From contig CAIWRB010000123.1 in the NCBI GenBank assembly GCA_903914955.1, forward strand, positions 1-49,258: 49,258 nucleotides of DNA, in the 5' to 3' direction. This DNA is from an uncultured Chloroflexota bacterium (GTDB lineage: Bacteria; Chloroflexota; Anaerolineae; Anaerolineales; Villigracilaceae). How positions within the stretch are numbered: position 1 is the first letter of the stretch; each line of letters starts with the position of its first letter. The translations under genes were made by a program, and so were the position numbers. Below the pieces are notes generated by a model that saw only the letters and a program-made list of their open reading frames with translations, had not been told where the DNA came from and ran no database searches. Of this stretch, positions 7,970-10,988 are shown one piece after another.

Positions 7970-7977
7970 TGCCGCGC

Positions 7978-7983
7978 AGTATA
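7978..7983 (-). promoter_or_regulatory. menA -10 box (leaderless position)
   Basis: Read on the minus strand this is TATACT, 8 bases before the menA ATG. An initiation point 6-8 bases downstream would fall at the start codon. No Shine-Dalgarno sequence is visible. A second minus-strand candidate, TATAAA at 7998-8003, would give a leader of about 20 bases. Confidence 0.5.
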
Positions 7984-7999
7984 ACGAATTTTCAGCGTT

Positions 8000-8005
8000 T
8001 ATAAT
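8000..8005 (+). promoter_or_regulatory. ubiE/menG -10 box (near-leaderless position)
   Basis: A perfect TATAAT lies 9 bases before the ATG at 8015. A transcript would have at most a few untranslated bases, and there is no purine-rich ribosome binding site. The -35 region is not recognisable. Confidence 0.5.
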
Positions 8006-8014
8006 AGGTCAACT

Positions 8015-8741: not shown

Positions 8742-9704
8742 TTAATCGTAGACTTCTGGATTGACGCAATTCGGTAATCGCTCGCCATTCAAGCCTGCAA
8801 TCAAATTCTCCGCGGCGAGCAGCGACATCATGTCACGGGTGTGCTGACTGGCGCTTCCAAGATGCGGAACGATGAGACAGTTCTCCAGCTCAAATAATGG
8901 ATTATCAGTTGGCAATGGCTCAGGGTCGGTGACATCCAATGCGGCGGCGAAAATCTTTTTTGATTTCAGCACATCGTATAAAGCAACTTGATCCACCACC
9001 CCGCCGCGTGAGGTGTTCACCAAAATCGAATTGAGTTTCATCTTCGCAAGAAAATCTGCATTAACCAGATGTCTCGTCTTTTCGGTCAACGGCACATGGA
9101 TCGAGACAAAATCTGATTCGCGCAAAAGTATATTCAGGTCAACGGCTTGCGCTCCGTAAGCAGATTGTGCTGATGGGTCATGATAGATCACGCGCATATC
9201 AAAACCTTGGGCACGTTTCGCCACGGCTTGACCAATTCTCCCGAACCCGACAATTCCCAATGTGGCACCGACAAAATCTGCGCCGAGCAGAAGTTTTGGA
9301 TTCCACGTTTTCCAATTTCCCGAGCGCACATATTTTTCACCTTCCACCACGCGGCGGGCGGATGCGAACAACAAAGCAATTGCCATGTCGGCGGTGGCAT
9401 CTGTCAATACACCGGGTGTGTTGCCAACCGGAATTCCACGCGCAGTGGCGGCGGCCACGTCAATATGATCCATGCCAACGGACATACTGCTGATGACTTT
9501 TAGTTGAGATCCAGCCGCATCCATCAATTCGGCATCTATTTTTTCGGTGAGCAGGCAGAGCAACCCATCCATGCCGCGGACATGTTGTAAAAGTTCCTCG
9601 CGTGCGGGCGGCATTTCAGCGGACCAAATATCACAAGTTGGAAAATGTTCCTTGACGAGATCCAACCCACGGTCTGGAATGATGCGGGTGATAAATATTT
9701 TCAT
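8742..9704 (-). CDS. D-2-hydroxyacid dehydrogenase (glyoxylate/hydroxypyruvate reductase-like)
   Basis: An NAD(P)-dependent D-2-hydroxyacid dehydrogenase of about 320 residues. The Rossmann motif is LGIVGFGRIGQAVAKRA near residue 148. The catalytic arginine is in VNTSRGGVVD, the glutamate in DVTDPEPLP, and the histidine in VPHLGSAS. The N-terminus MKIFITRIIPDRGLD is typical of glyoxylate reductases. I choose the internal ATG at 9704 rather than the open-frame start at 9743, which would overlap the divergent thioesterase gene. The substrate (glyoxylate, hydroxypyruvate or similar) is not determined. Its start codon is only 21 bases from that of the thioesterase, and a TATACT box lies 6 bases upstream. 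Confidence 0.9.
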   Translation of the reverse strand: MKIFITRIIPDRGLDLVKEHFPTCDIWSAEMPPAREELLQHVRGMDGLLCLLTEKIDAELMDAAGSQLKVISSMSVGMDHIDVAAATARGIPVGNTPGVLTDATADMAIALLFASARRVVEGEKYVRSGNWKTWNPKLLLGADFVGATLGIVGFGRIGQAVAKRAQGFDMRVIYHDPSAQSAYGAQAVDLNILLRESDFVSIHVPLTEKTRHLVNADFLAKMKLNSILVNTSRGGVVDQVALYDVLKSKKIFAAALDVTDPEPLPTDNPLFELENCLIVPHLGSASQHTRDMMSLLAAENLIAGLNGERLPNCVNPEVYD

Positions 9705-9710
9705 GCCCGG

Positions 9711-9718
9711 AGTATAAT
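9711..9718. promoter_or_regulatory. Shared, two-way -10 element of a 21-bp divergent gap
   Basis: The octamer AGTATAAT contains TATAAT on the plus strand (9713-9718, 7 bases before the ATG at 9726) and TATACT on the minus strand (9711-9716, 6 bases before the ATG at 9704). Both genes would be transcribed from the same -10 element without an untranslated leader. Confidence 0.6.
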
Positions 9719-9725
9719 CTCGCGC

Positions 9726-10196
9726 ATGACCAAAATCAAACAACCCAACTCACGTCACTGTTTTATTTGCGGATTGGAAAATCCGATCGGCTTGCATTTG
9801 CATATTTATGAAACTGAACCAGGCGTTATCGAAACTTCATACACCGCGCCTGATCATTTTCAAGGATACCCCGGCGTTTTGCATGGCGGGATCGTCGCGG
9901 CCATTCTCGATGAAGTCAGCGGGCGCGCGTTCATGGGCGATGCCGAGACACCTCGATTTATGTTCACGGGAAAACTCGAAGTGAAGTATCGCAAGAATGT
10001 TCCCGTTGGGCAACCACTAAAGATCATCGGCAAAGCGATCAGGGATAGAAAAAAATTTGTCGAAGCATGGGCGGGGATTTTTGATGAAAGCGGCGAACTA
10101 CTTGCGGAGGCAAATGCGATTCACATCAACGTGCCGCCTGATAAATTGGATATGTCGAAGCTGGATGAATTGGGCTGGAAAGTTTATCCTGATTGA
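9726..10196 (+). CDS. PaaI-family hotdog thioesterase
   Basis: A 156-residue hotdog-fold protein, probably an acyl-CoA thioesterase. HCFICGLENPIGLHL is the N-terminal signature of one subgroup. GYPGVLHGGIVAAILDEVSG carries the HGG and the catalytic-face acidic residue of the central helix. The following strand FTGKLEVKYRKNVPVG completes the fold. The start at 9726 is taken because it lies just after a TATAAT box and keeps the Cys motif near the N-terminus; the open frame from 9645 would run into the divergent gene. The acyl substrate is unknown. Confidence 0.88.
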   Translation: MTKIKQPNSRHCFICGLENPIGLHLHIYETEPGVIETSYTAPDHFQGYPGVLHGGIVAAILDEVSGRAFMGDAETPRFMFTGKLEVKYRKNVPVGQPLKIIGKAIRDRKKFVEAWAGIFDESGELLAEANAIHINVPPDKLDMSKLDELGWKVYPD

Positions 10197-10209: not shown

Positions 10210-10215
10210 TATAAT
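10210..10215 (+). promoter_or_regulatory. -10 box of the molybdenum hydroxylase/CcrM operon
   Basis: A perfect TATAAT lies 26 bases before the FAD-subunit ATG at 10242, with a GGAGG ribosome binding site at 10231-10235. The -35 region is not evident. It may serve the eight closely spaced genes that follow. Confidence 0.5.
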
Positions 10216-10241
10216 ACAGATGAATTTCACGGAGGCACCCC

Positions 10242-10988
10242 ATGATCACGATTTATCATCGTCCGCAAACACTGGAAGAAGCCCTGACTCTTTTGGCTCA
10301 ACCCAACACCGTTCCACTCGGAGGAGGAACGCTTCTCGCTGCGCGGCACCCGACAGCTGATTCCGTACAAGCGGTTGATCTTCAATCTTTGGGATTGGAC
10401 TCGCTAACAAAAAAAGGCAACGATCTCGAAATCGGAGCGACTTGCACGCTTCAAACCTTGCTCGAAAATGAAAATTGTCCCGAAGCATTGAAAGCCGCCA
10501 TCAAACTCGAAGCGCCGATCAACACCCGTAATTCAGCGACTACCGCAGGTACACTCGTCGCATGTGATGGACGTTCACCGTTTGCAACCGCCTTGCTTTC
10601 TTTGGACGCGAAATTAACAATAGTCAGTAAACAGTCATCAGTTATCGGCGTGGGCGAGTTTTTAGCATTGCGTCCGAGTGGACTGATCACCTCCATTACG
10701 ATTCCGCTTAACACAAAATTCGCATTTGAATTCGTCTCCCGCACTCCCACCGATAAACCCATCATCTGCGCCGCGTTGACTCAGTGGAGTTCAGGCCGCA
10801 CACGGCTCGCGCTGGGCGGCTTTGGCAAGAGTCCCATGCTGGCCATGGATGGCGGTGAATCCGAAGGGCTCGAATCTGCAGCGCGTATCACTTATCACGA
10901 GGCAACCGACGAATGGGCCAGCGCCGAATATCGCATGGATGTGGCGGCGGTGCTGGCGAAAAGGTGTCTGGAATATTTCAACGCGTAA
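10242..10988 (+). CDS. FAD-binding subunit of a molybdenum hydroxylase (YgfM/CoxM-like)
   Basis: A 248-residue FAD-domain protein of the xanthine dehydrogenase/CO dehydrogenase medium-subunit family, near the short length of E. coli YgfM. The FAD pyrophosphate loops are VPLGGGTLLAAR near residue 25 and INTRNSATTAGTLVACDGR near residue 92. It should pass electrons from the Fe-S/Mo subunit to an acceptor. Its partner is not adjacent but is encoded 6.5 kb downstream at 17531 within the same tight gene run. Codons about 127-136 are a four-unit heptad repeat (10621-10648). The stop lies 2 bases before the next start. Confidence 0.88.
   Translation: MITIYHRPQTLEEALTLLAQPNTVPLGGGTLLAARHPTADSVQAVDLQSLGLDSLTKKGNDLEIGATCTLQTLLENENCPEALKAAIKLEAPINTRNSATTAGTLVACDGRSPFATALLSLDAKLTIVSKQSSVIGVGEFLALRPSGLITSITIPLNTKFAFEFVSRTPTDKPIICAALTQWSSGRTRLALGGFGKSPMLAMDGGESEGLESAARITYHEATDEWASAEYRMDVAAVLAKRCLEYFNA
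10621..10648 (+). repeat. Heptad repeat (TNATCAG type) inside the FAD-subunit gene
   Basis: Four consecutive 7-base units are TAGTCAG, TAAACAG, TCATCAG and TTATCGG, read in frame as part of IVSKQSSVIG. Similar units occur at 23594-23621 and, as a long hairpin, at 41479-41522. Confidence 0.6.

Follow-up and report, generated by a model that had tools for sequence, protein, structure and literature searches.

Results

The divergent gene pair and its intergenic region

The window analyzed here, a whole stretch of 49,258 nucleotides from an uncultured bacterium of the Villigracilaceae (Chloroflexota, Anaerolineae), contains a 2-hydroxyacid dehydrogenase gene (DH) and a thioesterase gene (TE) that are transcribed away from each other. 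The identities given to the two genes in a preliminary description of this DNA agree with both the open reading frames (ORFs) and the family models (PF02826/PF00389 for DH; 4HBT for TE). The top NCBIfam model for DH was glyoxylate reductase, with a score below the cut-off of that model. Read directly from the letters of the window, the start-to-start gap is exactly 21 bp (9705-9725). It runs from CAT (9702-9704) through GCCCGG (9705-9710), AGTATAAT (9711-9718), and CTCGCGC (9719-9725) to ATG (9726-9728). The features of the locus are the following:

8742-9704, minus strand: 2-hydroxyacid dehydrogenase (DH), 320 aa, PF02826/PF00389; predicted leaderless, with a putative +1 at or next to 9704
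9705-9725: entire intergenic region; 21-bp divergent gap (of the 39 distinct divergent relatives, 35 have a gap of 20-22 bp)
9708-9719: core CNGAGTATAATC, window version CGGAGTATAATC; no variation at column -5 or at columns -3 to +6 in any of the 35 compact loci
9711-9718: octamer AGTATAAT, overlapping -10 elements of both strands; invariant in the 35 loci with the 20-22 bp form
9711-9716, minus strand: TATACT, -10 element for DH, with the DH ATG 6 nt away; in 35 of 39 loci, the two start codons lie 6-7 nt from the same box
9713-9718, plus strand: TATAAT, -10 element for TE, 7 nt from its ATG; the TATAAT-to-ATG distance peaks at 6-7 nt in the same genome
9726-10196, plus strand: 4HBT hotdog thioesterase (TE), 156 aa; predicted leaderless, with a putative +1 at or next to 9726
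9734-9739, minus strand: weak -35 candidate TTGATT, 17 nt from TATACT and within the TE coding sequence; 9 of 12 matches

The 21-base distance, with TATAAT 7 nt and TATACT 6 nt before the respective start codons, had been claimed beforehand and is exact in letters and coordinates. The two hexamers (TATAAT, 9713-9718; TATACT, 9716-9711) overlap by 4 bp (TATA) on opposite strands, and the overlap is conserved. The overlapping opposite-strand -10 elements that define a bidirectional promoter are, hence, present at 9711-9718.

The scanned region contained two promoter-like sites versus 2.6 expected in shuffles, and the terminator-like sites showed no excess (3 versus 3.0 expected). Across the orthologous loci, no conserved -35 element was visible on the DH or the TE side, and the candidate TTGATT showed no conservation among relatives that could be separated from that of the coding sequence.

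Conservation of the gap among relatives

The TE relatives comprised 30 loci from 61 genomes, 64 from the genome collection, and 20 added regions. These 114 loci resulted in 88 distinct rows, of which 39 had a divergent DH and 49 did not. The gap measured 20 bp in 10, 21 bp in 24, and 22 bp in one of the divergent loci (35 of 39), and each -10 element in these 35 lies 6-7 nt from its own ATG. Ten consecutive columns, GAGTATAATC (-3 to +6 around TATAAT), were identical in all 35 compact loci, as was an additional C at column -5, two columns to the left of GAGTATAATC. The spacer bases adjoining the TE ATG were variable among these loci; at the third codon positions of TE in the same loci, 1 of 37 columns was invariant and 36 were variable. 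The preliminary description had suggested aligning the orthologous gap, and both its length (20-22 bp, 35/39) and its octamer (35/35) proved to be conserved.

The N-terminus of DH is two to three residues longer in many relatives, with the ATG-to-box distance unchanged. The core letters occupy different TE reading frames in the loci with 6-nt and 7-nt spacing, and coding, therefore, does not explain the conserved core. A reading of the core as an N-terminal extension of TE (e.g., ...QSIIPRM) was rejected because the 6-nt and 7-nt loci keep the letters while the frames differ. As judged from the aligned sequences, the DH/TE arrangement is beyond chance and represents a true, well-conserved feature.

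Start codons and Shine-Dalgarno motifs

For the start-codon test, in-frame starts before a stop were listed within 300 nt upstream in the 35 compact loci. The ATG at the gap was the sole possible start of TE in eight loci, of DH in 13, and of both genes in six. In the remaining compact loci, additional in-frame starts occur upstream within the opposite gene, and the sequence alone does not dictate the start there. In most loci carrying both genes, the tblastn matches start at residue 1 or 2; therefore, the true starts cannot be much further inside the genes. A TTG equivalent to that at 9743, 39 nt upstream of the DH start, is present in 18 of the 35 loci and absent in 17. For the 18 loci that carry it, a DH start at this codon, which would overlap TE, is considered the less likely choice.

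A Shine-Dalgarno (SD)-like motif (AGGA, GGAG, or GAGG) at positions -13 to -4 was found in 0 of the 35 compact loci, for either DH or TE, as would be typical of leaderless genes. In seven of 38 loci, including the window, a GGAG directly abuts TATAAT on its upstream side. This GGAG would serve as an SD only if transcription started further upstream, and it would fall outside a leaderless mRNA.

As a control, DH genes away from TE were checked in 13 genomes. An intact close orthologue was located elsewhere in four genomes and beside TE in one (G004); a DH fragment at a contig end was found in one (G010), and only distant paralogues in seven. Of these four DH orthologues away from TE, L204, L206, and L208 show a clear SD ahead of the corresponding start codon, and L207 shows a weak AGGA. 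In four further loci (L026, L030, L063, and L064), TE directly follows the end of a ubiE-like gene (assigned by eye, ...HWGEK-stop) and has GGGGAGA upstream, and no TATAAT occurs within 40 nt of the TE start. As these copies of DH and TE carry SD or SD-like motifs, the SD absence seems to be tied to the gap and not to the genes. The earlier claims of one two-way -10 box and of two leaderless genes with no room for a ribosome binding site are backed here by comparison (for the latter, no SD in 35 loci and the position of the starts) rather than by mapping.

Altered gaps and loci without the dehydrogenase

Four of the 39 divergent loci (L005, L035, L079, and L153) depart from the compact form. 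In L005, the gap measures 63 bp and holds one box per gene: AGTATATC, located 6 nt from DH, provides only a leftward -10, and GTTATAAT, 6 nt from TE, only a rightward one. Each copy is without the final base needed for the opposite direction, and this single case would look like a two-way promoter split into two one-way promoters. In L035, where the gap is 38 bp, an inverted duplication is present (by eye) and no leftward -10 could be clearly recognized at the appropriate distance, and in L079, the TE start is 10 nt from the box. In G004 (L153, contig C35), the 22-bp arrangement is kept; the same locus was also found, as L223, by the 7/7 pattern described below. We observed by reading that L153 carries an insertion with a hairpin after the first copy of the TE start and that the start region is repeated beyond it; the insertion resembles a small mobile element flanked by a duplicated target.

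Among the 49 rows without DH, 12 keep a TATAAT 5-7 nt before the TE ATG. Of the 38 DH-containing loci with TATAAT beside TE, 37 (all but L005) carry the AG needed to complete the leftward box, versus five of these 12. Under a looser count, eight of the 12 fit the minimal leftward box ANTATANT (five with AG; L068, L078, and L082 with AA), and the sequence contrast between the two groups is only moderate. The AG is also kept in L015, L022, and L067, which have no intact divergent ORF where DH would stand. L067, one of the five DH-absent loci with AG, contains a short DH-like remnant (by reading), whereas L015 and L022 have no divergent start. Because eight of the 12 DH-absent loci fit the minimal box, and L015, L022, and L067 keep the AG, these letters alone are no proof of a working leftward promoter. 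Two near-identical loci, L075 and L152, also among the five with AG, lack DH beside TE; in L075, the TE ATG is exactly 21 bp away from the start of a divergent ORF for an ABC-type ATPase (assigned by eye), with the same box.

These loci bear on the alternative that the gap drives only TE, with DH read from a promoter inside the TE gene through a longer leader. The persistence of TATAAT at 5-7 nt in the 12 loci without a divergent DH would suit this alternative, as would the leftward TATACT, one base off the consensus, and the further in-frame upstream DH starts in 22 of 35 loci. However, neither the AG nor the CNG on its left side varies among the 35 compact loci, and the DH ATG is located 6-7 nt from its own box in them. 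DH is without an SD in 35 of 35 loci, as opposed to the SD or SD-like motifs of DH elsewhere, and in L005, a leftward AGTATA of its own lies 6 nt from DH. We consider a gap serving TE alone to be very unlikely.

Spacing between TATAAT and ATG in the genome

The pattern TATAAT-N3-10-ATG had 321 matches in the genome of the window, compared with 174 for the reversed pattern. Among the first 100 of the 321 matches listed, 28 had a spacing of N6 and 19 of N7, and the other spacings ranged from 1 to 16 matches. The signal was weaker in an even-step sample of G025 (seven for N6 and eight for N7 versus three and one in the controls). With the looser motif TANNNT, no clear spacing peak was seen in the sample of either genome.

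In the genome of the window, leaderless genes seem to form a regular class, which is consistent with the survey of Zheng (2011) for Chloroflexi (PMC3160421). In that survey, leaderless genes are preceded by a TA-like signal located roughly 12 bp from the start codon, and such genes occur in four of 12 Chloroflexi genomes, with a mean of 4.7%. The DH/TE genes resemble them, as the first T of the -10 element is located 12 bp (DH) and 13 bp (TE) before the start codon. The signal is likewise of the TATAAT type found in the Chloroflexi genes. The DH/TE pair is divergent, whereas the word "divergent" appears 0 times in the survey.

Recurrence between other gene pairs

The arrangement was counted as a pattern in 37 genomes, 23 from the genus of the window and 14 others from the order. 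The form CAT-N6-ANTATANT-N6-ATG (6/6) occurred at 30 sites, and its reversed control at none; the 6/7 form occurred at 47 sites (control, 3) and the 7/7 form at 11 (control, 0). An off-spacing box (12/13) gave 10 sites, which are halved to about five for a symmetric pattern. The 23 genomes of the genus hold 27 of the 30 6/6 sites and 40 of the 47 6/7 sites.

For the ORF check, 60 sites were fetched (19 of 30 for 6/6, 30 of 47 for 6/7, and 11 of 11 for 7/7). At 27 of 60 sites (14 of 19, 13 of 30, and 0 of 11, respectively), the pattern was flanked on each side by an ORF of 80 aa or more. Once the DH/TE sites were removed, 20 of 53 sites had such flanking ORFs, against one of 10 in the off-spacing control. 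The 27 two-sided sites comprise seven DH/TE pairs, nine mutL/HAD hydrolase pairs, four pairs of a methyltransferase and an aminoacyl-tRNA editing domain, four pairs of a 186-200-aa protein and a glycosyl hydrolase 18, and three singletons; the families of the other pairs were searched for a few members per pair. The only addition that the 7/7 layout makes to the class is the disrupted DH/TE locus in G004 (L223). The mutL/HAD layout was fetched at nine loci, among them L173 (G000:C19:11954-11979) from the genome of the window itself, where a perfect 26-bp palindrome, CATTGGCAGATTATAATCTGCCAATG, extends across the gap and both start codons.

A stricter pattern, submitted to 199 genomes of the class, was present in seven of the 10 genomes of the family of the window versus one of 189 others, so the stricter form is concentrated in this lineage. 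The 18-bp box type (TATNATA with 5 nt on each side) is apparently not the preferred form here, as it occurred at eight sites versus 30 for the 6/6 form of ANTATANT in the 37 genomes. The genome of the window has one TATTATA site with a 17-bp gap (G000:C262:10733-10755). The class may be under-counted because the patterns were exact and restricted to ATG starts (as opposed to GTG and TTG) and to the spacings listed.

The unit had been described as unusually compact, and its compactness (20-22 bp) stands; it is no one-off, since it recurs between other gene pairs of the family. We lean toward the view that the family keeps a dedicated class of such units, in which back-to-back start codons, both transcription start sites, and one two-way -10 box fit into 20-22 bp, the same orthologue being leaderless inside the unit and SD-led elsewhere.

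Recurrence also bears on the possibility that GAGTATAATC is mainly the operator of a regulator and that its likeness to a -10 element is secondary. Ten identical bases in 35 of 35 loci seem to exceed the needs of a -10 element alone, and the core is nearly palindromic. Nevertheless, the other pairs of matching layout carry ATTATAAT with varied flanks, the fixed quantity is the distance to both ATGs, and seven of the 12 loci with TE but no DH retain the rightward -10 without the AG. An operator as the main function, thus, appears highly improbable, slightly more so than a promoter for TE alone.

Proposed mechanism and relation to known promoters

From the observed sequence, the conservation of box and spacing, the SD absence, and the recurrence at other pairs, we infer a minimal bidirectional promoter whose symmetric box feeds two leaderless mRNAs, with a probability of roughly 0.8. 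RNA polymerase with the housekeeping sigma factor would bind the pseudo-symmetric AGTATAAT in either orientation. In the rightward orientation, it would use TATAAT and start on the AUG of TE or no more than about 1-2 nt away from it; in the leftward orientation, it would use TATACT and start at or next to the AUG of DH. The spacing places the predicted transcription starts 22 bp apart. Both mRNAs would be leaderless, and ribosomes would, accordingly, initiate directly on a 5'-terminal AUG. Only one polymerase is expected to fit at a time, which would make occupancy of the box exclusive.

In the bacterial bidirectional promoters described by Warman, Grainger, and colleagues, a near-symmetric -10 element permits polymerase to bind in both directions (PMC10268837, PMC12825309). 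Among these promoters, the commonest spacing between start sites is 18 bp, 10 and 23 bp are also common, and the definition covers 7-25 bp. The DH/TE gap shares the overlapping -10 elements on opposite strands, and its predicted spacing of 22 bp lies inside this definition and near the 23-bp class. The box of the published 18-bp class is TANNNTA by our own derivation, whereas the DH/TE box is ANTATANT. The DH/TE mRNAs are predicted to be leaderless, while the word "leaderless" occurs 0 times in these two papers.

The preliminary description held that the overlapping boxes would make transcription of DH and TE mutually exclusive; under such a switch, the cell would pick one of the two. Since the boxes have four bases in common, there should be no space for two polymerases at once, and steric exclusion is stated for bidirectional promoters of this kind (PMC12825309). 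Gap length and overlap are also conserved, though separate boxes would need just a few extra bases. Against such a switch, the basal activity of five out of five E. coli bidirectional promoters tested was too low for competition, and divergent RNA was repressible when one direction was substantially activated (PMC12825309). Moreover, L005, with its split boxes, retains both DH and TE. Exclusive polymerase binding is, then, still to be expected, but exclusive expression does not follow from it, given the low basal output of the five E. coli promoters; the claim was too strong in that respect, and we regard a hard either/or switch as unlikely. With the minimal bidirectional promoter, basal firing would probably allow both genes to be expressed in one cell, and a strongly activated direction could repress the opposite one.

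Related systems have been described in other bacteria. In Mycobacterium tuberculosis, prpD (Rv1130) and the divergent regulator Rv1129c both have leaderless mRNAs with mapped start sites, and closely juxtaposed divergent promoters are called common in this species (PMC3898074, figure legend). The prpD/Rv1129c pair shares the divergent leaderless pairing with DH/TE; one common -10 box is not stated in that legend. The EcoRV control region has divergent promoters with overlapping polymerase sites and no joint binding (PMC5333194). It differs in being regulated by a C protein, and EcoRV is stated in that article to lack the leaderless feature. Two-way boxes, leaderless genes, and a divergent leaderless pair (M. 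tuberculosis, PMC3898074) are already known. What is new is the apparent fusion of a two-way box with leaderless genes in a 20-22 bp unit that is conserved at several loci of one family. No title or abstract among the matches listed from the open-access literature described such units in Anaerolineae, subscription papers being mostly outside the scope of that search.

If the family does keep such a dedicated class of units, the balance between two proteins would be set by which way a single polymerase faces on a single box, and the rest of the intergenic DNA would play no part. The unit is small enough to be tested in full, and it offers a clean system for asking whether two genes are coupled through the direction that polymerase takes on a shared box. 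The DH/TE orthologues would also provide a system for watching a position-dependent switch between SD-led and leaderless expression.

Neighboring genes in the window

The window contains a second compact divergent pair, ubiA (minus strand) and ubiE (plus strand), separated by a 45-bp gap (7970-8014) in which each gene has a box of its own. The box of ubiA, AGTATA (minus-strand TATACT), lies 8 nt from the ubiA ATG, and that of ubiE, TATAAT, lies 9 nt from the ubiE ATG. The adjacent FAD-binding gene, by contrast, has a TATAAT at 10210-10215, room for a leader, a GGAGG at 10231-10235, and its ATG at 10242.
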